From Okeania sp. KiyG1 (GTDB lineage: Bacteria; Cyanobacteriota; Cyanobacteriia; Cyanobacteriales; Microcoleaceae), in the NCBI RefSeq assembly GCF_014132355.1, contig NZ_BLZO01000121.1:62001-126000 (forward strand): a DNA stretch of 64,000 nt, read 5' to 3'. Under the pieces are notes generated by a model. That model was not told the DNA's origin and made no database searches. It was given only the letters and a program-made list of their open reading frames with translations. The number at the start of each line of letters is the position of its first letter. Positions within the stretch are counted from its first letter, which is position 1. Position numbers and translations under genes: made by a program. Below are positions 5,098 through 64,000 of the stretch, one piece after another.

Positions 5098-8000
5098 TCA
5101 AAAGTAAGATTTTATCAGCTCTGGTTGAATACTTAGGGTTTGCTGATTAAATCTCACAGAACTGATCAATAAAAGTAAGTGCTTTTTTGGAGCAAAAAAA
5201 AAGTGCAAATTTTTCAGCTTGAGTGACCAAAAAGTTAGGACTTTGAGCAGACAAGCACAGTAAAGATACAGCTACAATTATTCCTCCCACTTTCAAAGTT
5301 AAAAGTCAAAAGTCATCCATTCAAAAGTCAAAAGTTAAAAGTTAAATTTGATTAGCTCTGGTTGAATACTTAGGGTTTGCTGATTAAATCTCACAGAAAT
5401 GATCAATAAAGGTAAGTGCCTTTTTGGAGCAAAAAAAAGTGCAAATTTTTCAGCTTGAGTTACCAAAAAGTTAGGACTTTGAGCAGACAAGCACAGTAAA
5501 GATACAGCTACAATTATTCCTCCCAGTTTCAAAGTTAGAAGTCATGCATTCAAAAGTTAAAAGTTAAAAGTAAGATTTGATTAGCTCTGGTTGAATACTT
5601 AGGGTTTGCTGATTAAATCTCAAAGAACTGATTAATAAAGATAAGTGCTTTTTTGGAGCAAAAAAAGTGCAAATTTTTCAGCTTGAGTCACTACAAAGTT
5701 AAGACTTTGAGTAGACAAGTACAGTAAAGATACACCTACAATTATTCCTCCCACTTTCAAAGTTATAGCAATTGTCAAAGCGTTTAGGACAGAGAAAAGC
5801 TCAAATTATTAGACCATCTCAATGAGGAGATATAGCTGCCGCATTTACTGCCCCAACGCTATATTTGTCTTTTATGTCCCAAGCGCCTTGGCGACTGCTA
5901 TAAAAGTCAAAAGTAAGATTTGATTAGCTCTAGTTGAATACTTAGGGTTTGCTGATTAAATCTCAAAGAACTGATTAATAAAGATAAGTGCTTTTTTGGA
6001 GCAGAAAAAAGTGCCAATTTTTCAGCTTGAGTCACTACAAAGTTAAGACTTTGAGTAGACAAGTACAGTAAAGATACACCTACAATTATTCCTCCCACTT
6101 TCAAAGTTAAAAGTTAAAAGTAAGATTTGATTAGCTCTGGTTGAATACTTAGGGTTTGCTGATTAAATCTCACAGAACTGATTAATAAAGATAAGTGCCT
6201 TTTTGGAGCAAAAAAAAGTGCAAATTTTTCAGCTTGAGTCACCAAAAAGTTAGGACTTTGAGCAGACAAGCACAGTAAAGATACACCTACAATTATTCCT
6301 CCCACTTTCAAAGTTAAAAGTCAAAAGTAAGATTTGATTAGCTCTAGTTGAATACTTAGGGTTTGCTGATTAAATCTCAAAGAACTGATTAATAAAGATA
6401 AGTGCTTTTTTGGAGCAGAAAAAAGTGCCAATTTTTCAGCTTGAGTCACTACAAAGTTAAGACTTTGAGTAGACAAGTACAGTAAAGATACACCTACAAT
6501 TATTCCTCCCACTTTCAAAGTTAAAAGTTAAAAGTAAGATTTGATTAGCTCTGGTTGAATACTTAGGGTTTGCTGATTAAATCTCACAGAACTGATTAAT
6601 AAAGATAAGTGCCTTTTTGGAGCAAAAAAAGTGCAAATTTTTCAGCTTGAGTCACCAAAAAGTTAGGACTTTGAGCAGACAAGCACAGTAAAGATACACC
6701 TACAATTATTCCTCCCACTTTCAAAGTTAAAAGTCAAAAGTAAGATTTGATTAGCTCTAGTTGAATACTTAGGGTTTGCTGATTAAATCTCACAGAACTG
6801 ATTAATAAAGATAAGTGCTTTTTGGAGCAAAAAAAGTGCAAATTTTTCAGCTTGAGTCACTACAAAGTTAAGACTTTGAGTAGACAAGTACAGTAAAGAT
6901 ACACCTACAATTATTCCTCCCACTTTCAAAGTTAAAAGTTAAAAGTAAGATTTGATTAGCTCTGGTTGAATACTTAGGGTTTGCTGATTAAATCTCACAG
7001 AACTGATTAATAAAGATAAGTGCCTTTTTGGAGCAAAAAAAAGTGCAAATTTTTCAGCTTGAGTCACCAAAAAGTTAGGACTTTGAGCAGACAAGCACAG
7101 TAAAGATACACCTACAATTATTCCTCCCACTTTCAAAGTCAAAAGTCAAAACTCATCCATTCAAAAGTCATGCATTTAAAAGTAAGATTTGATTAGCTCT
7201 AGTTGAATACTTAGGGTTTGCTGATTAAATCTCACAGAACTGATTAATAAAGATAAGTGCTTTTTTGGAGCAAAAAAAGTGCAAATTTTTCAGCTTGAGT
7301 CACTACAAAGTTAAGACTTTGAGTAGACAAGTACAGTAAAGATACACCTACAATTATTCCTCCCACTTTCAAAGTTAAAAGTTAAAAGTAAGATTTGATT
7401 AGCTCTGGTTGAATACTTAGGGTTTGCTGATTAAATCTCACAGAACTGATTAATAAAGATAAGTGCCTTTTTGGAGCAAAAAAAAGTGCAAATTTTTCAG
7501 CTTGAGTCACCAAAAAGTTAGGACTTTGAGCAGACAAGCACAGTAAAGATACACCTACAATTATTCCTCCCACTTTCAAAGTCAAAAGTCAAAACTCATC
7601 CATTCAAAAGTCATGCATTTAAAAGTAAGATTTGATTAGCTCTAGTTGAATACTTAGGGTTTGCTGATTAAATCTCACAGAACTGATTAATAAAGATAAG
7701 TGCTTTTTTGGAGCAAAAAAAAGTGCAAATTTTTCAGCTTGAGTCACCACAAAGTTAAGACTTTGAGGAGACAAGCACAGTCAAGATACAGCTACAATTA
7801 TTCCTCCCACTTTCAAAGTTAAAAGTCAAAAGTAAGATTTGATTATCTCTGGTTGAATACTGAGGGTTTGCTGATTAAATCTCACAGAACTGATTAATAA
7901 AGATAAGTGCCTTTTTGGAGCAAAAAAAAGTGCAAATTTTTCAGCTTGAGTCACCACAAAGTTAAGACTTTGAGCAGACAAGCACAGTCAAGATACACCT

Positions 8001-9544
8001 ACAATTATTCCTCCCACTTTCAAAGTCAAAAGTCAAAACTCATCCATTGAAAAGTCATGCATTTAAAAGTTAGATTTGATTAGCTCTAGTTGAATACTGA
8101 GGGTTTGCTGATTAAATCTCACAGAACTGATTAATAAAGATAAGTGCCTTTTTGGAGCAAAAAAAGTGCAAATTTTTCAGCTTGAGTCACCACAAAGTTA
8201 AGACTTTGAGCAGACAAGTACAGTAAAGATACACCTACAATTATTCCTCCCACTTTCAAAGTTAAAAGTCAAAAGTAAGATTTGATTAGCTCTGGTTGAA
8301 TACTTAGGGTTTGCTGATTAAATCTCACAGAACTGATTAATAAAGATAAGTGCCTTTTTGGAGCAAAAAAAGTGCAAATTTTTCAGCTTGAGTCACCACA
8401 AAGTTAAGACTTTGAGCAGACAAGCACAGTAAAGATACAGCTACAATTATTCCTCCCACTTTCAAAGTTAAAAGTTAAAAGTCAAAAGTAAGATTTTATT
8501 AGCTCTAGTTGAATACTTAGGGTTTGCTGATTAAATCTCACAGAACTGATTAATAAAGATAAGTGCCTTTTGGAGCAAAAAAAGTGCAAATTTTTCAGCT
8601 TGAGTCACCACAAAGTTAAGACTTTGAGCAGACAAGTACAGTAAAGATACACCTACAATTATTCCTCCCACTTTCAAAGTTAAAAGTCAAAAGTAAGATT
8701 TGATTAGCTCTGGTTGAATACTTAGGGTTTGCTGATTAAATCTCACAGAACTGATTAATAAAGATAAGTGCCTTTTTGGAGCAAAAAAAGTGCAAATTTT
8801 TCAGCTTGAGTCACTACAAAGTTAAGACTTTGAGTAGACAAGTACAGTAAAGATACACCTACAATTATTCCTCCCACTTTCAAAGTTAAAAGTTAAAAGT
8901 AAGATTTGATTAGCTCTGGTTGAATACTTAGGGTTTGCTGATTAAATCTCACAGAACTGATTAATAAAGATAAGTGCCTTTTTGGAGCAAAAAAAAGTGC
9001 AAATTTTTCAGCTTGAGTCACCAAAAAGTTAGGACTTTGAGCAGACAAGCACAGTAAAGATACAGCTACAATTATTCCTCCCACTTTCAAAGTTAGAAGT
9101 CATGCATTCAAAAGTTAAAAGTTAAAAGTAAGATTTGATTAGCTCTGGTTGAATACTTAGGGTTTGCTGATTAAATCTCAAAGAACTGATTAATAAAGAT
9201 AAGTGCCTTTTTGGAGCAAAAAAAAAGTGCAAATTTTTCAGCTTGAGTCACCAAAAGTTAGGACTTTGAGCAGACAAGCACAGTAAAGATACAGCTACAA
9301 TTATTCCTCCCACTTTCAAAGTTAGAAGTCATGCATTCAAAAGTTAAAAGTTAAAAGTAAGATTTGATTAGCTCTGGTTGAATACTTAGGGTTTGCTGAT
9401 TAAATCTTAAAGAACTGATTAATAAAGATAAGTGCCTTTTTGGAGCAAAAAAAGTGCAAATTTTTCAGCTTGAGTCACCAAAAAGTTAGGACTTTGAGCA
9501 GACAAGCACAGTAAAGATACAGCTACAATTATTCCTCCCACTTT
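5098..9544. repeat. Tandem array of ~20 copies of a ~206-bp unit
   Basis: The string GGGTTTGCTGATTAAATCT recurs about 20 times at roughly 206-230 bp spacing. Each unit holds TAAGATTTGATTAGCTCT, this core, a TTTTTGGAGCAAAAAAAGTG stretch, CAGCTTGAGTCAC and CTACAATTATTCCTCCCACT, and is linked to the next by AAAAGTC/AAAAGTT heptamers. Two subtypes alternate over much of the array: one with CTCTGGTTG and GAGCAGACAAGCACAG, the other with CTCTAGTTG and GAGTAGACAAGTACAG. That suggests a dimeric higher-order unit of ~413-443 bp. The core resembles the TAGGGTTTGCTGA end of the MITEs at 27.5, 51.5 and 56.4 kb. A different MITE interrupts the array at 5764-5902. Confidence 0.9.
5764..5902. mobile_element. 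MITE with TATAGC...GCTATA ends, inside the array
   Basis: A 139-bp element unlike the surrounding repeats. Its ends are imperfect inverted repeats: TATAGCAATTGTCAAAGCG on the left, and on the right the complement of CGCCTTGGCGACTGCTATA. TA at the edges fits the TA target choice of IS630/Tc1-mariner-type transposases. No coding sequence is inside. Confidence 0.7.
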
Positions 9545-9589
9545 CTCTGTCTCCCCACACTTCCCGCACTCCCCCACTCCCCCACTTCC

Positions 9590-33238: not shown

Positions 33239-36200
33239 ATGAACTTAATGGACGAAGAAAGGTTACAAGCTTACATTTCCCTAATTCAAGAATTGCTGAA
33301 TTGCCCCAGTGGGGAAGAAGCGGAAATTCTCAACAGACACCCGGAACTTATAGATGAGGGTTTGGTGCAGGTGTGCAGGCAAGTAGTGGAAAATTTGCAG
33401 CGGGAAGGGCAAGAAAACCAGGCGCAATTTCTACAGCATTTGGCACAACAATTGGCAGAGTTGCTTAATCTCCAGTCTCCCGGTGGTGGGGTAGCTCCCA
33501 AAAAGGCGACACCTGAAGAATATTTGAGATTTTTGATGGAGGTTTTGCAAGCTGAGGTTGACAGTAATAGTGACCCTGGGGTTGTCTATCCACTTCTAGC
33601 AAAAAATCAAGATAAACTCGACTTGACTTTTGCAGAGGTTCTCAAAGAGTGGTTTGAGTCAAAGCTTGACCCTGATAATTCTGAGAGAAACCAATTTCTG
33701 GCACAAATTCTTAATGATTTTGCTGTTAATATTTTTAACTTTCCTTTAGGCAACGGAGCAAATAATCTGGAAATAGCTATCGCCTCCTACAAAGAAGTTT
33801 TACAAGTTTTAACTCTAGAAGCTTTTCCCCAAGACTGGGCAATGACTCAAAATAATTTGGGTCTGGCTTACGGTAACCGCATTAGAGGAGAGCGTTCAGA
33901 AAATCTGGAAATAGCGATCGCCTTCTATCAAGAAGCTTTACAAGTCTATACCTGTGAAGTTTTTCCTCAAGACTGGGCAATGACTCAAAATAATCTGGGG
34001 AATGCATACTCAGAACGCATCAGAGGAGAGGGATCAGAGAACCTGGAGAAAGCTATCGCTTGCTACAAAGCAGCTTTACAAATTCGGACTCGTGAAGTTT
34101 TTCCCCAAGACTGGGCAATGACTCAAAACAATCTGGGAGAAGCTTATCGTACTCGCATTAGGGGAGAGCGTTCAGAGAATGTAGAGAAAGCCATTGCCTT
34201 CTACCAAGAAGCTTTACAAATTCGGACTCGTGAAGCTTTTCCCCAAGATTGGGCACTGACTCAAAATAATCTGGGTATGGCCTATAATGACCGCATTAGA
34301 GGAGAGCATTCAGAGAATGTGGAGAAAGCCATCGCCTGCTATGAAGCAGCTTTACAAATTCGGACTCGTGAAGCTTTTCCTCAAGACTGGGCAATGACTC
34401 AAAACAATCTGGGTATTGTCTACAATGACCGCATTAGAGGAGAGCGTTCAGAGAATGTGGAGAAAGCCATCGCCTGCTATGAAGCAGCTTTACAAGTCTA
34501 TACCCTAGAAGCTTTTCCCCAAGACTGGGCAATGACTCAAAATAATCTGGGACAAGCCTATCGCACTCGCATTAGGGGAGAGCATTCAGAAAATGTGGAG
34601 AAAGCCATCGCCTGCTATGAAGCAGCTTTACAAGTCTATACCCTAGAAGCTTTTCCCCAAAACTGGGCAGCAACCCAAAACAATTTGGGTATTAGCTACA
34701 ATGACCGCATTAGAGGAGAGCGTTCAGAGAATGTGGAGATGGCCATCACCTGCTATGAAGCAGCTTTACAAGTTCGTACTCGTGAAGCTTTTCCTCAAGA
34801 GTGGGCAATGGCTCAAAATAATCTGGGTATTGCTTACTCAAACCGCATCAAAGGAGAGCAGTCAGAGAATATAGAAATAGCTATTGCCTACTACGAAGCA
34901 GCTTTGCAAGTCCGTACCCGTGAAGCTTTTCCCCTAGACTGGGCAACAACTCAAAATAATTTGGGGAATGCCTACAATGACCGCATCCAGGGAGAGCGTT
35001 CAGAGAATGTGGAGATGGCAATCGCCTACCACAAAGCAGTTTTACAAGTTCGTCGGACTCGTGAAACTTTCCCCCAAGAATGGGCAAGAACTCAAAATAA
35101 TCTGGGGAATACCTACCGTAACCGCATCCAGGGAGAGCGTTCAGAGAATGTGGAGATGGCGATTGCCTACTACAAGGCAGCTTTACAAGTCCGTACCCGT
35201 GAAACTTTTCCCCAAGAGTGGGCAACAACTCAAAATAATCTGGGTATTGCTTACTGGAACCGTATCAAAGGAGAAAAGTCAGAGAATATGGAGAGGGCGA
35301 TTGCCTGCTACAAGGCAGCTTTACAAGTCCGTACCCGTGAAGCTTTTCCCCAAGAATGGGCAAGAACTCAAAATAATTTGGGTCTTGCCTACTCAGACTG
35401 CATCCAAGGAGATCGCTCAGAGAATATAGAAATAGCTATTACCTACTACGAAACAGCTTTACAAGTCTTAACCCTAGATGCTTTTCCCCAAGAGTGGGCA
35501 ACAACTCAAAATAATTTAGGAAATGCTTACGAAAACCGCATTCAAGGAGAGCAATGGGAGAATATGGAACAAGCGATTGACTGCTACCAAGCAGCATTAC
35601 AAGTCCATACCCCTGACTTTTTCCCTCTCGACTGCCTCCGAACAGGTCGCAACCTGGGCAACCTGGGCATTGATATGGAAAACTGGGAAATTGCTATCTC
35701 TGGTTACAACCAAGCTATCCTTGGTGTAGAGAAAAGTCGCTATTGGGCAGTCTCCGAACTTACTAAAAGGGAAATTATAGAAAATAACCTAATCATTTAT
35801 GAAAAAATGGTGCAAGCGTGCATCAAGCATCAAGACTATCGCCAAGCTATCCTCACTGTTGAGCGTAGTAAATCTCAAACATTAATCGAACTCCTCAACA
35901 GTGCCAACCTCTATCCCAAAAATGCCACCGATGACCAAAAACAAAGCATCAGCGAATTACGTCGCCAAATCGCCTCCTACCAACAACAACTTATGGATAG
36001 TAGGCAACAGGCAACAGGCAACAGGCAAGAATTAATAGGAGGAGGTTTGGCAGAAGAAAGAGGAGAAAATTTTTCTTACGTACCCGAAGCCAACATCCGT
36101 ACCCAACTCCAAACTGCCAATCAAGAATTCCAACAACTCCTAGAAGAAATTGGCGACTCAGACTTCGCCCTTACCCAACAAGTTACCCCCCAACTGCCAG

Positions 36201-55004: not shown

Positions 55005-56223
55005 GATGAATATCAAAGATTTCAAGTCTGTTTTAATTTTTTCTGTAGCAATAGTATTAGGAGTTTTTGTTGCTCCTACAAAAGCTGCAAATATTTCTAG
55101 AGTAGTTAACTTTTAGGACTTGCCCCTTGGACCTGAAGAATTTTACCGAAAAATTGGGTTTAAAGCCTCCCCCTAAAAGGGGGACTTTATGTTATTATGG
55201 AAACAGCGGAAAGGTATTCAACCGCTCTAAAAACCTATAGCTACTTAACTGTAGCGTTTGCACCTTGAAAACTAGAGTTATGGGGTTTTGTACAGTAATG
55301 CTTGTACATGGAAAAGCTCTAAGCAACAAGTACCAGAGAACCAACATTTTTGTTTGAGGTTTGAACTGTACCGTAGGGCATACGGGAACAGGCTCTTGGA
55401 ATAGAGCAAACGCTTGGGGAGAGAACCATCTCTGGGCTAAGTATCGCAAGGTAATTAGTTTAAGTGGACTCAGTGAACCAAGAATCCTGGTTTCAGGAGA
55501 ATCTCCGCGCCTTTAGGCCGGAGAGTATGTCAAAATGGTTCTGATGGCGCTGGAGGATTTACGAGTCAGGATGCCTTTTTTAACAATAGCTTTAATTCCA
55601 CCTTTGGAAGTTGGTCAGGATGGTCGTATTCAAATACCTCTGACACTACAACATCAGGTTTCATGAATCAATATAGTGCCTTTACTGGTACTGGGTTTGG
55701 TGGAACGGGAAATTATGGCGTAGCTTTTACCTTTAATCCGGGTGATGCCATGATTGAGCTACCTGATGGTTATTCGGTTGATTCTGTAAGGATTACAAAT
55801 ACAACCTACGCTGCTCTCTCTATGCTGAATGGAGATCGGTTTGCCAAGAAGTTTGGTGGTCTATCTGGCAACGATCCTGACTTCTTTTTGTTGACAATTA
55901 ATGGTCTGGATGATTCTAATACTTCGGTAGGAAGTGTAGAGTTCTATTTAGCGGATTATCGTTTTGCAGATAACTCCCAAGACTTCATTGTTGATGATTG
56001 GAGTTTAGTCGATTTATCGCTTCTCAACGCTGCAACTAAACTTTCCTTCGCACTCACCTCATCTGAATAATGACCCTCAATTTGGGCTAAATACCCCAGC
56101 ATATTTTGCTTTGGATAATCTGATTTTACACAAATCTGTAAAATCTGTACCAGAATATGCTTCAAATCTTGGTTTATTAGTATTGGGTGCTGTTGGCGTT
56201 GGTTCAATGTTAAAGCGCAAATA
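55005..56223 (+). pseudogene. DUF4465 PEP-CTERM protein gene, broken three ways
   Basis: Signal peptide MNIKDFKSVLIFSVAIVLGV...APTKAAN at 55005-55095. An in-frame TAG at 55113 replaces what looks like a Glu codon (NF-DLPLGPEE). A non-autonomous element of about 390 bp is inserted after about 55144. The protein then continues GSDGAGGFTSQDAFFNN, FGSWSGWSYSNTSDTTTSGF, NQYSAFTGTG and ends the open part at 56070 after LSFALTSS, a DUF4465 domain. A one-base shift leads to DPQFGLNTPAYFALDNLILH and the sorting signal VPEYASNLGLLVLGAVGVG, then SMLKRK. Stop at 56221-56223. Clearly an exported PEP-CTERM protein now dead. Confidence 0.85.
55145..55533 (+). mobile_element. Non-autonomous IS200/IS605-like element in the DUF4465 gene
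   Basis: Left end, after TTTTAC: CGAAAAATTGGGTTTAAAGC, then CTCCCCCTAAAAGGGGGAC. Right end: GAATCTCCGCGCCTTTAGGC, then CGGAGAGTATGTCAA. Identical logic to the element at 30502-30732. The interior has many stems, e.g. TTTTGTACAGTAATGCTTGTACA and GGGGAGAGAACCATCTCTGGGC, and no ORF. The host protein continues directly on both sides, which defines the boundaries. Confidence 0.75.
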
Positions 56224-56281
56224 GGATTAATTGCTAGAGTTATGGATCTATAAGCTCTAGGCAAACATAATAAGGTATTCA

Positions 56282-56447
56282 ACAATTAATAATTAATAAT
56301 TAACTATTACCTCTCCTTGAAAAGAAGAAGATTGACGCGGAGCGTGAAAATTTTTTCTTCTCTTGGTCTTATGGATATGGCGAGGTCTCCTCGCCATATC
56401 CATAAGACCGCTTTTTCTCCTTTAAAGGAGAGGTTTTAAACCTTAAT
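56282..56447. repeat. Family-A palindromic repeat, copy 8
   Basis: ACAATTAATAATTAATAATT, CTCTCCTTGAAAAGAAGAAG, CTTGGTCTTATGGATATGGC, GAGGTCTCCTCGCCATATCC, CCTTTAAAGGAGAGGTTTTA, AACCTTAAT. Its end ATTATTCGGTAA is displaced to 56707-56718 by the MITE inserted at 56448. Confidence 0.75.
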
Positions 56448-56706
56448 TAGGGTTTGCTGAATAAAGTATGAGTGTTAGGGGTAGGAGTCAGAACTCAGGA
56501 GTCAGAACTCAGGAGTCAGAACTCAGGATAAATGGGAATTATAGAGGAGGTAGTCGGAAAAATTGTCCCAAGATTGGTCTGCCATAATCGTCCCAAAATA
56601 CTAGCTTTATGCAGCTCTTTCCACTGAAAACAGGCGAACTTTTTTAGACCCAAAAATGCTACAACCAATATCAGTCAATGCTTTGATATTTAATCAGCAA
56701 GCCCTA
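56448..56706. mobile_element. MITE with TAGGGTTTGCTGAATAAA ends, nested in family-A repeat
   Basis: TAGGGTTTGCTGAATAAA at the left, TTTAATCAGCAAGCCCTA at the right: a good 18-bp inverted repeat with two mismatches. TAATTA occurs on both edges. Interior: GAGTCAGAACTCAG tandem units and GGATAAATGGGAATTATAGA. Its ends are the best-preserved of this family and are the likely source of the core of the 206-bp array. Confidence 0.75.
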
Positions 56707-56784
56707 ATTATTCGGTAAATGTAATAGTAAGGTGCGTTTTGCTGACGCAAAGCTCCGCTAACGCTGTACGACAAGAAACGCATT

Positions 56785-59700
56785 CTACAACTTTCCCACT
56801 CCCCCACCACCAGGAGTTTCAATGACAAATACATCACCAACATTCATCTCCACAGTGGCTGTACTCCCCAATTCTTCAATTTTCCCATCACTGCGTTCTA
56901 CATAATTTTTTCCTACTAAACCATTACCCCCACCATTCAAACCAGGGGGGGAAACAACCCGATGACCTGATAATATCCCGGCAGTCATCTGCTCCAAGAA
57001 ACGTATCTTCCGAATTACTCCATTGCCACCTTTATATAAACCTTCACCTCCACTCCCGGAACGAATGGCAAAATTTTCTAGCAATACTGGAAATCGCCAT
57101 TCCAAAACTTCGGGGTCGGTTAACCGGGAGTTGGTCATGTGAGTATGTACTGCGTCGGTGCCATGAAAGTTAATACCTGCACCGGAACCTCCACAAATGG
57201 TTTCATAATATTGATATTTACTATTGCCAAAGGTGAAATTATTCATTGTTCCTTGGGAGGATGCCATTATTCCTAAGGCATTGTATAAAGTATCGGCTAT
57301 GGTTTGAGAAGTTTCGACATTTCCAGCGACAATAGCTGCTGGATATTTGGGGTCTAACATACTACCTTTGGGGATAATAATTTCTAATGGTTTGAGACAA
57401 CCTGCATTGAGGGGAATATCATCATCAACTAGGGTACGAAAGACATATAAAACTGCTGCTTTACATACTGCGGTTGGTGCATTGAAGTTTGTGGGAAGTT
57501 GGGGAGATGTTCCTGTAAAGTCTATTTTGGCACTGAGATTTTTTTTGTCGAGACTGACAGAAACTTGAATTTTATTGCCGTCATCGAAGGTGGATGTGTA
57601 AATTTTTTTGTTGAGTGATGAAGAGAGTTTTTTGATTGCTCGCCGTACTGATGTTTCGGCGTTATTTTGGACAAATTTCATGTATGCTTGTACGGTTTCT
57701 AATCCATATTTTTCTGTCATTTTTTGCAGTTCTTGTGTACCTTTTTCATTTGCTGCTATTTGTGCTTGGAGGTCGGCGATATTTTGGCTGGTGTTTCTGG
57801 CAGGATATTTGCCGGAGGTGAGGATGTCTAATATTTCTGTTTCTTGGAATTTTCCGTTTTTGACGAGTTGGAAGTTATCTATTAATATTCCTTCTTCTTC
57901 TACTGTTTTACTATGGGGTGGCATGGAACCGGGGGTAATTCCTCCAATATCTGCATGATGACCGCGGGAGGCTACATAAAATATGGGAGTTTCTATTTTT
58001 TCTGTCTTTTCAGAGGGAGTTAGGCAAGTAGTTGTTTCATTTTCAGAAATAATATTTTGATTGGGAATAGGGTCTACGGATTTTAATTTTTGAGTGATAG
58101 ATTTATCACCTAAAGCAATATTTGTATTGGATAAAGTTTCTTCACTGGTATTAGTTTCAGGAAAAGTATTTGTCTGATTCTCCCAAATTAATTTTTCATT
58201 GCCAGGAAGCTGTACAGATTTTAATTTTTGAGTGATAGATTTATCCCCTAAAGTGATTTTTGTATTGGATAAAGTTTCTTCGCTAGGAAACTGTACAGAT
58301 TTCAACTTTTGAGTAATAGATTTATCGCCTAAAGTGATTTTTGTATCGGATAAAGTTTCTTCAGTTGAATTAGTTTCAGGAAAAATATTTGTCTGATTTT
58401 GCCAAATTAATTTTTCATTGCCAGGAAACTGTACAGATTTCAACTTTTGAGTAATAGATTTATCGCCTAAAGTGATTTTTGTATCGGATAAAGTTTCTTC
58501 AGTTGAATTAGTTTCAGGAAAAATATTTGTCTGATTTTGCCAAATTAATTTTTCATTGCCAGGAAGCTGTACAGATTTTAATTTTTGAGTAATAGATTTA
58601 TCGTCTAAACCAATATTTGTATTGGATAAAGTTTCTTCACTGGTATTAGTTTCAGGAAAAATATTTGTCTGATTTTCCCAAATTAATTTTTCATTGTCAG
58701 GAAGTTGTACAGACTTCAACTTTTGAGTAATAGATTTATCGTCTAAACCAATATTTGTATTGGATAAAGTTTCTTCACTGGTATTAGTTTCAGGAAAAGT
58801 ATTTGTCTGATTTTCCCAAATTAATTTTTCATTGCTAGGAAACTGTACAGATTTTAATTTTTGAGTGATAGATTTATCGTCTAAACCAATATTTGTATTG
58901 GATAAAGTTTCTTCGCCAGGAAACTGTACAGATTTTAATTTTTGAGTAATAGATTTATCGTCTAAACCAATATTTGTATCGGATAAAGTTTCTTCACTGG
59001 TATTAGTTTCAGGAAAAATATTTGTCTGATTCTCCCAAATTAATTTTTCATTGCTAGGAAACTGTACAGATTTTAATTTTTGAGTGATAGATTTATCGTC
59101 TAAACCAATATTTGTATTGGATAAAGTTTCTTCGCCAGGAAACTGTACAGATTTTAATTTTTGAGTAATAGATTTATCGTCTAAACCAATATTTGTATCG
59201 GATAAAGTTTCTTCACTGGTATTAGTTTCAGGAAAAATATTTGTCTGATTTTCCCAAATTAATTTTTCATTGTCAGGAAGTTGTACAGACTTCAACTTTT
59301 GAGTGATAGATTTATCCCCTAAAGTTATTTTTGTATCGGATAAAGTTTCTTCACTGGTATTAGTTTCAGGAACAATATTTGTCTGATTCTCCCAAATTAA
59401 TTTTTCATTGCTAGGAAACTGTACAGATTTTAATTTTTGAGTAATAGATTTATCGTCTAAACCAATATTTGTATCGGATAAAGTTTCTTCGCCAGGAAAC
59501 TGTACAGATTTTAATTTTTGAGTAATAGATTTATCGTCTAAACCAATATTTGTATCGGATAAAGTTTCTTCACTGGTATTAGTTTCAGGAAAAATATTTG
59601 TCTGATTTTCCCAAATTAATTTTTCATTGTCAGGAAGTTGTACAGACTTCAACTTTTGAGTAATAGATTTATCGTCTAAACCAATATTTGTATTGGATAA

Positions 59701-62679
59701 AGTTTCTTCACTGGTATTAGTTTCAGGAACAATATTTGTCTGATTTTCCCAAATTAATTTTTCATTGCCAGGAAGCTGTACAGACTTCAACTTTTGAGTA
59801 ATAGATTTATCGTCTAAAGCAATCTTTGTATCGGATAAAGTTTCCTCACTGGAATTAGTTTCAGGAACAATATTTGTCTGATTTTCCCAAATTAATTTTT
59901 CATTGCCAGGAAGCTGTACAGACTTCAACTTTTGAGTAATAGATTTATCGTCTAAAGCAATCTTTGTATCGGATAAAGTTTCCTCACTGGAATTAGTTTC
60001 AGGAAAAGTATTATTGTTCTTGTTTTGTAAATCATGGTTAGCAATGACAGAAGGAACTTTTGGTTTTTGTAGAGGTGGAAATACGGGGGTAATAACTGTT
60101 ATGTCTGGTAAATGAGTACCACCGTTATAGGGATTATTTAAAACATAAACGTCTCCTGGTTTGAGGATATCTTTTTTATCAGAAATTACGGCATTAACAC
60201 TTTCGCTCATGGAGCCTAAATGTATGGGAATGTGAGGTGCATTGGCAACTAATTGACCGTCTCTATCGAAGATGGCGCAGGAAAAATCTAGTCTTTCTTT
60301 GATGTTTACTGAGGAACCAGTTTTTTGTAATGTTATTCCCATTTGTTCGGCGATCGCTCTAAATAGGTTATTAAATATTTCTAGCATTACTGGGTCTGCT
60401 GATGTTGGGATTTTTGTTTGAGATGTTGTGGTTGGATCTAGAGATTTTTCTGTGTTTTTGCTCTTGGTTAATACGAGGTGATTTTTGAGGGTTAATTCTG
60501 CTTGCCATCCTGGTTCAATAATATTTGTTCCGGTTTTTTCTATGATTAAGGCGGGACTATTAATTTTTGTTCCTGGTTGTAGGTTTTCTCGTAGATAAAT
60601 AGGTGTATCTTGCCATTTTCCGGCGGTGTAGATTTTTGTTTTTGTAATTGGAGTTATGGCAGTTTTTTGAGTGGGAGAATTTTCTGTTTCTTCTGGGGTT
60701 TCCATTTGTTGAATAAGTTCTAGGGAAACTGCTTCAATAATTAGAGATTTTTCTGTCATTATAAATCCATATCTTTGTTGATGGGCTGTTTCAAATTCGG
60801 ATTTCATTATGGAGATATTTTCGGCAAAGTCTACGATTAATGTTGAGTCGCTGCCTTGATATTTGATGTGAACTTTCGATAAGGATATTTGATTTTGATT
60901 GGAGTTTATTTCTTGTTTAGCTTCAGTTTCTAGTGTGGCTAAAATTTCTTTAATTTCTGGCAATAATTCTGGAGTTAGTATTTTTTCAACTGCCTTTTCT
61001 TTCATAACTCGAATATCTGCCAATCCCATGCCATAAGCTGATAAAACTCCGGCATAAGGATGAATAAATATTTGTTTCATCCCCAAAGCATCAGCAATTA
61101 AACAAGCGTGTTGACCGCCAGCTCCACCAAAACAACAAAGAGTATATTCTGAAACATCATAACCTTTCTCCAAAGAGATTTTTTTAATCGCATTTGCCAT
61201 TTTTTCCACAGCGATCGCTAAATATCCACTAGCTACTTCTTCTGGTTTTTTACTATTACCTATTTCTACTGCTAACTGAGTAAACTTTTCTCGAACAATC
61301 TCCAAATTTAAAGGTAAATTTCCATCTTTCCCAAAGACTTTCGGGAAAAATTCCGGCTGTATTTTTCCGACCATGACATTACAATCTGTCACTGTTAAAG
61401 GTCCGCCTTTTCCATAAGCAGCAGGTCCAGGATTTGCCCCAGCAGATTCAGGTCCGACACGATAACGAGAACCATCAAAAAATAAAATTGAACCTCCACC
61501 AGCAGCCACAGTATGTATCGACATCATCGGAGTTTGTAACCGTACCCCTGCAATTTCTGTTTCAAATTCTCGCTCGTATTCTATTGTTTTATTTTCTGCT
61601 CCAGCGTAATGAGCAACATCAGTAGAAGTACCGCCCATATCAAAACTAATTATCTTATGAAAACCAGCCATTTTACTTGTTTGAACTGCTCCAACAATTC
61701 CACCAGCAGGTCCAGATAAAATACTATCTTTACCTTGAAATTTTTGAGCATCTGTTAAACCGCCATTTGACTGCATAAACATTAATTTAACTGCCTGTCT
61801 TTCTGAAATATTGCGACTATTTAAAACACCTTTTCCAAAAGTTAAAGTTAAATCTTTTTTCTTCTCTCCTCCTCCTCCTGCTTCACCACCTATTTCCTTT
61901 CTTTCAAAACTAAGTTCTGAGGAATTTTGGATAGAAGATATATTCTCTGTTTCTAAATTTTCAAAGCAGTTCAAAGAATTACTGACTTGATTGACATATC
62001 TTAGTAAAATTGGTGATAAATAAGCATCAACAACAGTAGTATCTCCCCGACTAACTAATTTCATTAAAGGGCTAACTTCGTGAGATACAGATATTTGAGT
62101 AAATCCTATTTCTTGAGCAATTTCTTTAATTTTTTGCTCATGCTTCGGGTAACGATAACCGTGCATTAAAACAATGGCGCAACTTCTAATTCCTGCTGCA
62201 TAAACTTCTTGAAGTTGAATAGTTAACTCCGTTGTTTGAAGTGGAATAATTTCTTCACCTTTCGCCGTATAACGTTCCTCTACTTCAATAACTTTCTCAT
62301 ACAACATTTCCGGCAAAATAATTTCTCTAGCAAAAATATTTGGTCGGTTTTGATAACCAACTCTTAGAGCATCTTTAAAACCCTTCGTAATAACTAAAAC
62401 TGTACGGTCGCCCTTCCTTTCTAATAAAGCATTTGTAGCGACAGTAGTACCCATTTTAATCACTTCTATTTCTTCAGAAAAAATGGGTTGATGTTGAAGA
62501 ATTCCTAATATTTCACGAATTCCTTGTACTGGAGCATCTTGGTAGCGATCGGGATTTTCTGATAATAGTTTATGAATAATAATTTGACCGTCCGGAGCTT
62601 TAGCCACTATGTCAGTAAATGTACCTCCACGGTCTATCCAAAATTGCCAAGAGTTGTTAGTAATAGATGTGTTAGTCAT
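56785..62679 (-). CDS. 5-oxoprolinase/hydantoinase-type enzyme with internal 46-aa repeat array
   Basis: 1964 residues. The A domain (about 1-760) begins WQFWIDRGGTFTDIVAKAPDG and has SFDMGGTSTDVAHYAG and AAGGGSILFFDGSRYRVGPE. The B domain starts near 765 (DPVMLEIFNNLFRAIAEQMG) and ends VFVIETPGGGGVGKL. Together they are the fused form that opens 5-oxoproline or hydantoin-like rings using ATP. Normal fused enzymes are about 1200-1300 residues. The excess is an in-frame array (about residues 890-1540) within the B domain between VITPVFPP and FYVASRGHHADIGG. A second insertion near 240-285 has a Gly/Lys-rich stretch (GGEAGGGGEKKKD). The frame is open throughout, suggesting that the protein is made. 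The ATG at 62679 is the natural start. Confidence 0.9.
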   Translation of the reverse strand: MTNTSITNNSWQFWIDRGGTFTDIVAKAPDGQIIIHKLLSENPDRYQDAPVQGIREILGILQHQPIFSEEIEVIKMGTTVATNALLERKGDRTVLVITKGFKDALRVGYQNRPNIFAREIILPEMLYEKVIEVEERYTAKGEEIIPLQTTELTIQLQEVYAAGIRSCAIVLMHGYRYPKHEQKIKEIAQEIGFTQISVSHEVSPLMKLVSRGDTTVVDAYLSPILLRYVNQVSNSLNCFENLETENISSIQNSSELSFERKEIGGEAGGGGEKKKDLTLTFGKGVLNSRNISERQAVKLMFMQSNGGLTDAQKFQGKDSILSGPAGGIVGAVQTSKMAGFHKIISFDMGGTSTDVAHYAGAENKTIEYEREFETEIAGVRLQTPMMSIHTVAAGGGSILFFDGSRYRVGPESAGANPGPAAYGKGGPLTVTDCNVMVGKIQPEFFPKVFGKDGNLPLNLEIVREKFTQLAVEIGNSKKPEEVASGYLAIAVEKMANAIKKISLEKGYDVSEYTLCCFGGAGGQHACLIADALGMKQIFIHPYAGVLSAYGMGLADIRVMKEKAVEKILTPELLPEIKEILATLETEAKQEINSNQNQISLSKVHIKYQGSDSTLIVDFAENISIMKSEFETAHQQRYGFIMTEKSLIIEAVSLELIQQMETPEETENSPTQKTAITPITKTKIYTAGKWQDTPIYLRENLQPGTKINSPALIIEKTGTNIIEPGWQAELTLKNHLVLTKSKNTEKSLDPTTTSQTKIPTSADPVMLEIFNNLFRAIAEQMGITLQKTGSSVNIKERLDFSCAIFDRDGQLVANAPHIPIHLGSMSESVNAVISDKKDILKPGDVYVLNNPYNGGTHLPDITVITPVFPPLQKPKVPSVIANHDLQNKNNNTFPETNSSEETLSDTKIALDDKSITQKLKSVQLPGNEKLIWENQTNIVPETNSSEETLSDTKIALDDKSITQKLKSVQLPGNEKLIWENQTNIVPETNTSEETLSNTNIGLDDKSITQKLKSVQLPDNEKLIWENQTNIFPETNTSEETLSDTNIGLDDKSITQKLKSVQFPGEETLSDTNIGLDDKSITQKLKSVQFPSNEKLIWENQTNIVPETNTSEETLSDTKITLGDKSITQKLKSVQLPDNEKLIWENQTNIFPETNTSEETLSDTNIGLDDKSITQKLKSVQFPGEETLSNTNIGLDDKSITQKLKSVQFPSNEKLIWENQTNIFPETNTSEETLSDTNIGLDDKSITQKLKSVQFPGEETLSNTNIGLDDKSITQKLKSVQFPSNEKLIWENQTNTFPETNTSEETLSNTNIGLDDKSITQKLKSVQLPDNEKLIWENQTNIFPETNTSEETLSNTNIGLDDKSITQKLKSVQLPGNEKLIWQNQTNIFPETNSTEETLSDTKITLGDKSITQKLKSVQFPGNEKLIWQNQTNIFPETNSTEETLSDTKITLGDKSITQKLKSVQFPSEETLSNTKITLGDKSITQKLKSVQLPGNEKLIWENQTNTFPETNTSEETLSNTNIALGDKSITQKLKSVDPIPNQNIISENETTTCLTPSEKTEKIETPIFYVASRGHHADIGGITPGSMPPHSKTVEEEGILIDNFQLVKNGKFQETEILDILTSGKYPARNTSQNIADLQAQIAANEKGTQELQKMTEKYGLETVQAYMKFVQNNAETSVRRAIKKLSSSLNKKIYTSTFDDGNKIQVSVSLDKKNLSAKIDFTGTSPQLPTNFNAPTAVCKAAVLYVFRTLVDDDIPLNAGCLKPLEIIIPKGSMLDPKYPAAIVAGNVETSQTIADTLYNALGIMASSQGTMNNFTFGNSKYQYYETICGGSGAGINFHGTDAVHTHMTNSRLTDPEVLEWRFPVLLENFAIRSGSGGEGLYKGGNGVIRKIRFLEQMTAGILSGHRVVSPPGLNGGGNGLVGKNYVERSDGKIEELGSTATVEMNVGDVFVIETPGGGGVGKL
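58056..60005 (-). repeat. In-frame tandem repeat inside the oxoprolinase gene
   Basis: Sixteen copies of KSITQKLKSV can be counted. The full unit is 46 codons (138 bp): SEETLSDTNIGLDDKSITQK, LKSVQLPGNEKLIWENQTNI, FPETNT. In four places a shortened unit lacks the NEKLIWENQTNIFPETNTS part. Units are nearly identical in DNA, so the array is recent. Composition is polar and acidic, probably an extended surface loop. Confidence 0.9.
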
Positions 62680-62822
62680 ATCAATTTAGAATGCAATAAA
62701 TTTGAGTAGTTTATAACAGGATATTCAGAGTTATACCTAATACTTATGTAGGTGAGGTAGACTTGATTTTCTTTTTTGTTCGTTAAAACAACAAATCTTG
62801 TATGTCATTCAAGGGATAAAAG

Positions 62823-62939
62823 TTATAATTGCAAAACTTTAACAGTTTTATCATCTCTTCCACTCACCAAAAATAATTGATCTGAGCTAAACATATAAAG
62901 GAGGCAGTCTACATTTTCTGATAGTAGTTTATAAATCAT
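62823..62939 (-). pseudogene. WD40 repeat fragment
   Basis: Minus-strand frame MIYKLLSENVDCLLYMFSSD, then QLFLVSGRDDKTVKVLQL, and stop: the last blade of a WD40 protein. Upstream blades are absent and a family-A repeat follows at 62945. A relic only. Confidence 0.55.
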
Positions 62940-62944
62940 AATTT

Positions 62945-63103
62945 TACCGAAGAATTAAGAATTAAATAATTAAATAATTAAATAATTTAGGTTTAAAGCC
63001 TCCCCTTTCAAGGGGAAACAAGAAAAATTTTCCTTTTATTCAATCCTCTTCCTTTTAGGGAGAGGTAATTATCAATTATCCATTATCAATTATCAATTAT
63101 TGA
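62945..63103. repeat. Family-A palindromic repeat, copy 9
   Basis: TTACCGAAGAATTAAGAATT...GGTTTAAAGCCTCCCCTTTC, AAGGGGAAACAAG, AATCCTCTTCCTTTTAGGGA, GAGGTAATTATCAATTATCC. Confidence 0.7.
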
Positions 63104-63107
63104 ACAT

Positions 63108-63190
63108 CCGTAGCTTTAGCAACTAGGTCAGTAAATGTTCCTATACAGTCTATTCAAAATTGCCAAGAGTTGTTAGTAATGGATGTATTA
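63108..63190 (-). pseudogene. Duplicated 5' end of the oxoprolinase-type gene
   Basis: The minus strand reads TNTSITNNSWQF, stop (TGA for Trp), IDCIGTFTDLVAKAT. This equals residues 2-28 of the gene at 56785-62679 with a few changes. It lies about 430 bp upstream of that gene's start, so the region was duplicated and one copy decayed. Confidence 0.75.
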
Positions 63191-63322
63191 GTGGGACTTA
63201 CACAAAATAGAGGCATAAACATAAAATAGTCCCAAATATATATAGGTAGAGAGTTTCACGTCAAAAAGGTATAATTCTTTCACTACCAAGGGTTACAGCT
63301 ATTTTTAGGGCGTAGACTTCAT

Positions 63323-63556
63323 TAATTGATAATTGATAATGGATAATTGATAATTACCTCTGGTTAAAACCGTTACGGAATTGAATATAAGGAAATATTA
63401 TTTCTTCTCTTGGTCGATTGGATATGGCGAGGGGACCTCGCCATCCCATCCTACGGACTGCTCCGCAAACGACCGCTTTTTTCCCCTTAAAGGGGAGGCT
63501 TCAAGGCGCGAATTATTTAATAATTAATAATTAATAATTAATAATTCGGTAATTCC
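63323..63556. repeat. Family-A palindromic repeat, copy 10
   Basis: TTGATAATTGATAATGGATA, ATTACCTCTGGTTAAAACCG, TTACGGAATTGAATATAAGG, GGTCGATTGGATATGGCGAG, CGACCGCTTTTTTCCCC, TTAAAGGGGAGGCTTCAAGG, AATTCGGTAA. Carries a CATCCTACGGACTGCTCCGC segment also found in copy 1. Confidence 0.75.
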
Positions 63557-63838
63557 CTTATACAGACAGACTTTTCTTGCTGAATGCTACGCAAACAGGC
63601 ATTTTTTGACCAGATAATGTGTAAATACCATTAGAAAATAATATTTTTATAGATTTTTAATGATACATTTAATTTGAGTTGAAAAAATGAATAATTACTT
63701 CTAATCTTTATACTTACTAATTTATACCAAATCTGATTCATATAAAGATATCTATAATTTTCCCTATTCTATCAGAAATACAGCGCGCGTAAAATTGTTC
63801 CATCCCATCGCTATAACATTACTTCTATCAATTTATTA
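63557..63838. other. AT-rich spacer with one short dispersed repeat
   Basis: CTTGCTGAATGCTACGCAAA, then CAGG, at 63577-63600 is a copy of the 26-bp motif. No gene. Confidence 0.4.
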
Positions 63839-64000
63839 TTATTCTTCTTCATGTAACTTCCCTTCAGAAATTACCGTTGTTTCTATCTCCATTTTCAAAT
63901 TTTTATGATTACCTATGTCTCGTATCCATCTCAAAAGCGTATTTGCTAACCTCGCCGCTACTACAGTTCCTTCAAAATTAAAATCAGGATTTTGTAAACC
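63839..64000 (-). CDS. Unknown protein, C-terminal end (runs off the window)
   Basis: Minus-strand frame from the window edge: GLQNPDFNFEGTVVAARLAN, then TLLRWIRDIGNHKNLKMEIE, ending GKLHEEE and TAA at 63841-63839. Fifty-three residues of an open frame with normal-looking composition; the start lies beyond 64000. No family recognised. Confidence 0.55.
   Translation of the reverse strand, partial: GLQNPDFNFEGTVVAARLANTLLRWIRDIGNHKNLKMEIETTVISEGKLHEEE

Follow-up and report, generated by a model that had tools for sequence, protein, structure and literature searches.

The gene and its insert

The window analysed here, a stretch of 64,000 nucleotides from the marine filamentous cyanobacterium Okeania sp. 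KiyG1, holds a fused HyuA-HyuB gene whose 1964-residue product is interrupted within its B domain by a long tandem repeat (Table 1). Hydant_A_N, Hydantoinase_A, Hydant_A_C and Hydantoinase_B follow one another in this order, all above the Pfam cut-off, and the product is a predicted enzyme of the HyuA-HyuB/5-oxoprolinase type, with ATP-dependent hydrolysis of 5-oxoproline as its putative activity. PF02538 is matched in two stretches with the array between them (Table 1 gives the coordinates of the C-terminal one), in keeping with a sequence-only reading of this DNA which had placed the insertion between two conserved B-domain segments. The insert parts YNGGTHLPDITVITPVF from FYVASRGHHADIGG, the latter beginning at 57981 on its C-terminal side. 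Both segments are rich in residues that are invariant among 51 aligned B domains (hand-chosen from the fetched loci), and the invariant residues are retained on both sides of the insert. In the solved homologues 7hk5, 6yra_B and 5l9w (an N-methylhydantoinase, a hydantoinase and an acetophenone carboxylase, respectively) the alignment shows only a few residues and no insertion at this site, and we infer that the site is an exposed turn.

Table 1. Features of the oxoprolinase-type gene and its insert (window coordinates).
Feature	Position	Strand	Basis
Fused HyuA-HyuB (5-oxoprolinase/hydantoinase-type) gene, 1964 aa	56785..62679	minus	ORF; Pfam PF05378, PF01968, PF19278, PF02538
Hydant_A_N domain (PF05378)	62104..62643	minus	Pfam, residues 13-192
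Hydantoinase_A domain (PF01968), best stretch	61006..61803	minus	Pfam, residues 293-558
Hydant_A_C domain (PF19278)	60493..60792	minus	Pfam, residues 630-729
Hydantoinase B domain, N-terminal part, DPVMLEIF to ...YNGGTHLPDITVITPVF	60079..60396	minus	End read from sequence; invariant columns
N-terminal, little-repeated junction of insert (PPLQKPK...NNNTFPETN)	59992..60078	minus	Read from sequence
Tandem array, 16 units (11 x 46 codons, 4 x 27, last 25)	58075..59991	minus	TRF and unit analysis
C-terminal, unrepeated junction of insert (DPIPNQNIISENE...IETPI)	57982..58074	minus	Read from sequence
Hydantoinase_B (PF02538), C-terminal stretch	56791..58023	minus	Pfam, residues 1553-1963

In unit register the array comprises 639 codons, and TRF extends it to position 60012. 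Its 16 core units define 15 spacings, eleven of 46 codons and exactly four of 27, with a final unit of 25 codons; all are in frame, and the units of 27 codons are those without a spacer of 19 residues. The ORF is open throughout, no other ORF of at least 100 aa overlaps the array, and the array, with its tandem units in one open frame, is an in-frame VNTR. The sixteen copies, the 46-codon unit and the four shortened junctions thus agree with what had been read from the sequence, and the statement that the gene is about 650 codons longer than usual fits the array, the whole loop being 712 aa against 19–35 aa in 76 of 94 distinct loci that have this gene. The units are not all nearly identical, as had been claimed: over their shared 27 codons they differ by a mean of 11% of nucleotides, although several are identical and the longest exact repeat inside the array, 218 bp, is far beyond chance.

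The insert is acidic and rich in T, N, S, E and K, and in all five arrays tested the hydropathy and charge of the loop fall on the disordered side of the Uversky boundary; the long insert is probably floppy. Within the repeat the Pfam search gave only two sub-threshold matches, to PF12690 BsuPI (residues 1075–1101, E 0.0007, below cut-off) and PF16300 WD40_4 (E 0.068), both of which we regard as chance.

Copy number and loop length in related genomes

We compared one genome per species. Arrays occupy the same loop of the same gene in 6 of 13 genomes from two related genera, namely Okeania (6 genomes) and its sister genus g7 (7 genomes, Trichodesmium/Hydrocoleum by its named records), and the frame is open in all six. 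Copy number differs between related species; the sequence-only reading had called for a comparison among related strains. Four of the six Okeania genomes carry arrays, with 16 core units in KiyG1, 10 in G005, 14 in G004 and 11 in G001, while the other two (G002 and G003) have an 80-aa loop that holds only a remnant. In the sister genus two of seven have arrays, G017 with 15 core units and G022 with six, cut by a contig end; G011, G026 and G029 have one unit each and G035 has one unit and a part, and G032, an assembly that is 81% complete, gave no match.

The length of the loop follows the same series. Beside the 712 aa of KiyG1, loops with arrays measure 560 aa (L119), 620 aa (L121), 482 aa (L122) and 765 aa (L124); those with one unit measure 98 aa (L126, L127 and L128), that with one unit and a part 114 aa (L125), and those with the remnant 80 aa (L120 and L123). 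Loops of at least 40 aa occur in 18 of the 94 loci, and ten of these come from the two genera. The C-terminal part of the protein is 97% identical in Okeania sp. SIO1I7 (L039) and Okeania sp. SIO2C9 (L040).

At E ≤ 0.001 the unit is found in 11 of 62 genomes of the family, with all 57 matches in the oxoprolinase-type gene, and we reject a mobile element since the unit occurs in this one gene only. A search of its own genome at E ≤ 10 returned one further row (E 0.061, 26% identity), which we attribute to chance; a plasmid search returned no match.

The gene itself is matched by its C-terminal part in 54 of 60 relatives (E ≤ 1e-60), the other six giving no match. In the array-less G003 (L123) a tandem repeat whose offset, 98 bp, is not a multiple of three splits the HyuA part; this gene is either a pseudogene or an assembly error. 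The more distant relative G009 has several stops in the C-terminal part of the gene, and in G045 the gene lies in two pieces. The split gene of G003, the broken one of G009 and the six relatives without a match suggest that some species may be able to do without the enzyme. Frameshifted arrays, which had been named as a sign of a non-functional gene, are absent from the six arrays; the frame-breaking duplication of G003 lies in another loop.

History of the units

In a tree of the units, those of L124/G017 (15 of 15), of G022 (6 of 6) and of the four Okeania arrays (49 of 49 kept) form separate groups, with supports of 0.84, 0.94 and 0.79, respectively. Within the Okeania group the units of the four species are intermixed, and the largest single-species groups hold only 3 of 16, 4 of 10, 4 of 14 and 2 of 9 units. 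This pattern fits one amplification before the four Okeania species split, plus a further one or two in the sister genus, though homogenisation of a single ancestral array could also produce separate groups. Several supports in the flank tree within the genus are weak, and the array-less L120 and L123 do not come out as sisters in it; L122 begins its array with a unit similar to the remnant in L120.

The mean dS among the units of KiyG1 is 0.30 over 27 codons and 0.22 over 46 codons, compared with a dS of 0.08–0.17 when the flanks of the enzyme are set against each other across species of the genus. Since the units have diverged more than the flanks, the unit types seem to predate the separation of the species, provided that the array does not mutate faster, and only the block copies seem recent. 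The recent expansion proposed earlier from the similarity of the units would accordingly apply to the block copies and not to the unit types.

Repeat background in the genome and in other cyanobacteria

To place the array in its genomic setting we surveyed arrays with a period of at least 18 in 792,381 bases (7%) of the same genome, comprising the window and 39 further stretches, and assigned them to ORFs of at least 150 aa. The 44 arrays inside ORFs, two of which are parts of the present array, have a period divisible by three in 43 cases, compared with 25 of 67 arrays outside ORFs. The divisibility of the unit length by three, which had been pointed out, is thus general for in-ORF arrays in this sample of the genome. 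Many of these encode TPR, WD40, HEAT-like, pentapeptide, RTX or coiled-coil repeats, as judged by reading the sequences, eight ORFs having been scanned with Pfam. One other enzyme-like case is found among them, a fused two-domain ABC transporter ATPase (L140:17380-19341) in which a short in-frame repeat (EEGRRMKDEGRRKEDEGIRK) is inserted ahead of an LSGGQ motif.

Further arrays lie in the window. A 138-bp, 13-copy in-frame array at 33764-35616, in a 1374-aa ORF, has TPR-like units by sequence reading and shares its period, and not its sequence, with the oxoprolinase array. A long tandem array at 5901-9545, outside ORFs of at least 150 aa, has a 207-bp period and approximately 17 copies, with TRF also giving a 443-bp period over 6736-9545.

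Oxoprolinase-type genes of other cyanobacteria carry repeats as well. Unrelated short in-frame repeats occupy the same loop in eight loci (L047, L050, L053, L075, L077, L098, L129 and L130), and repeats elsewhere in the enzyme lie mainly in an A-part loop and in the A-B region; the 21-bp two-copy rows in this survey look like conserved sequence and not like inserts. A different region of the enzyme holds in-frame PSCGTGILPV repeats in the oxoprolinase ORFs of L052 and L132 (78-bp x 3 and 51-bp x 5.9). In a set of 52 loci from cyanobacteria that do not belong to the clade, picked by record title, arrays occur in 18 of 69 oxoprolinase-type ORFs and in 21 of 150 neighbouring ORFs of at least 300 aa (Fisher p 0.037; 177 and 218 kb; the ORFs are stop-to-stop, so some may not be genes). 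The frequency of arrays per length is about equal in the two sets, and we therefore reject the idea that this enzyme is a special magnet for repeats.

This background of in-frame arrays reduces the surprise of the array. The sequence-only reading had held such VNTRs to be unusual in cytosolic enzymes; the host is indeed of a cytosolic type, but in other cyanobacteria arrays are equally common per kb in the neighbouring ORFs. Its description of the locus was accurate, and its interpretation is partly supported.

A probable tolerated expansion of a permissive loop

We consider it likely, with a probability of roughly 0.8, that the array is a linker, expanded and probably disordered, which occupies a permissive loop in a HyuA-HyuB enzyme that works. 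An ancestor of Okeania and its sister genus would have gained a linker of approximately 80–100 aa between the two conserved B-domain segments, as suggested by comparison of the present loops, and a 46-codon part of this linker would then have been tandemly duplicated, the length differences between species being directly observed. Unequal recombination or replication slippage may have grown, shrunk and reshuffled the copies, giving anything from a remnant to about 16 units, with the short units arising by internal deletion and with blocks being copied. Purifying selection would remove any change that disrupts the reading frame or damages the enzyme, and only in-frame arrays would persist. Between species of Okeania the flanks of the enzyme have a dN/dS of 0.09–0.24 and, judged by these rates, are under purifying selection, compared with 0.61–0.83 for the loop in relatives with a single unit or a remnant.

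Because the insert in relatives differs widely in length or is nearly absent, it looks like tolerated ballast and not like a new functional part: a flexible loop, in agreement with its composition and rates of change, in which the core of the unit may be mildly constrained. As a process this would be ordinary for a lineage rich in repeats, the in-frame growth of a tandem array in a loop that permits it, although the present case is unusually extreme and well documented. Two points speak against pure ballast. The core of the unit is more conserved than its remainder, which would not be expected of ballast, though the contrast is borderline. Keeping long arrays, as four of the six Okeania genomes do, also costs nitrogen, and their loss might be expected if they were useless.

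The constraint on the core was assessed from substitutions between units. Averaged over pairs, the between-unit dN/dS (27/46 codons) is 0.25/0.28 in KiyG1, 0.60/0.53 in L119, 0.33/0.55 in L121, 0.57/0.63 in L122 and 0.72/0.68 in L124. When each change is counted once on spanning trees, the resulting omega over 27 codons is 0.45 in KiyG1 (synonymous excess p 0.004), 0.56 in L121 (p 0.05) and 0.49 in L122 (p 0.02), and 0.55 for the four Okeania arrays pooled (p = 0.0008), with no synonymous excess in L119 (0.96, p 0.53) or L124 (0.86, p 0.43). Over the 46-codon units omega is 0.50 in KiyG1 (p 0.01), 0.82 in the pooled four (p 0.14) and 0.47 in L124 (p 0.02). Within the unit, the four Okeania arrays give an omega of 0.40 for the 12-codon core LDDKSITQKLKS, falling to 0.19 in KiyG1, against 1.06 for the N-terminal part and 1.37 for the spacer. 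These values suggest that much of the unit evolves near-neutrally and that the core is perhaps constrained.

The strongest alternative takes this constraint as its starting point and proposes that LDDKSITQKLKS is a selected binding motif, many copies of which would let the enzyme self-associate or tether it to a partner, at a strength set by the copy number. The low omega of the core and the synonymous excess in the pooled and KiyG1 arrays speak for it, as does KSITQKLKS, which L120 and L123 preserve in their short loops. We nevertheless think it unlikely, given that the contrast between core and remainder is borderline across the four arrays (Fisher p 0.05–0.09) and not significant in KiyG1 (p 0.16) or L124 (p 0.25), that two arrays lack the synonymous excess over 27 codons, that two of six Okeania genomes keep a remnant and three of the sister genus a single unit, and that the single unit of L127 has lost much of the core. 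The more specific proposal that a selected short linear motif makes the enzyme multivalent, with VNTR copy number tuning clustering or partner binding between species, we regard as quite improbable.

An assembly or collapse artefact, in which the array or its copy number would not be real as read, is very unlikely. Exact repeats such as the 218 bp of KiyG1 and the 434 bp in the array of L121 are hard for short reads, and the G022 contig breaks within its array, so that exact copy numbers in these short-read assemblies are uncertain. This uncertainty extends only to the exact number, as arrays appear in six separate assemblies with species-specific unit variants, all in frame.

We give as little credence to removal of the insert after transcription or translation, as an intron or intein, or to decay of the gene as a pseudogene. 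Trichodesmium is known for inteins and group II introns, and the split copy in G003 would suit a decaying gene, but Pfam recognises no intein splicing domain in the protein, Rfam at gathering score gives no match in 56000-64000, the flanks are under strong purifying selection and all six arrays have kept an open frame. A structured RNA element is rejected on the same Rfam search and on the folding of two units (z 0.35).

Relation to known systems

Our literature search found no report of a tandem repeat array in a cyanobacterial oxoprolinase. Intragenic in-frame VNTRs of bacteria are known from surface proteins and adhesins; they resemble the present array in their tandem in-frame units, in a copy number that varies between relatives and in their block duplications, whereas the host here is a predicted cytosolic enzyme and the repeat sits in an internal loop instead of a stalk or tail. 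A likeness from a close relative is Trichodesmium erythraeum DnaB, a non-surface protein with large in-frame tandem repeats; there they lie within an intein, while here no intein family is matched. The short tandemly repeated repetitive sequences (STRR) of cyanobacteria find a parallel in the 7- to 8-nt and other short repeats in oxoprolinase loops of other cyanobacteria, but STRR have 7-nt units in few copies, compared with 138-nt units in 16 copies here.

The Rickettsia palindromic elements (RPE) are in-frame insertions in metabolic genes, according to PMC10969869. The metabolic genes remain open, as in the present case, while RPEs are dispersed over many genes and the present unit is tandem and was found in one. 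PMC9950141 describes Trichodesmium genomes as repeat-rich.

The two genera offer a natural series of loop expansion in one conserved enzyme, from a remnant through one unit to 10 to 16 units. Such a series lends itself to the question of how far an enzyme can accommodate additional loop length, and of how proteins in repeat-rich cyanobacteria are shaped jointly by slippage, selection on the frame and relaxed constraint. It also advises caution, in that odd gene lengths in such genomes need not mean new domains. The L124 protein (2207 aa) has further in-frame arrays in other loops, at residues 264–354 (135-bp x 2) and 639–767 (105-bp x 3.7), and thus three arrays in a single protein; a version of the second of these extra arrays is present in G022.
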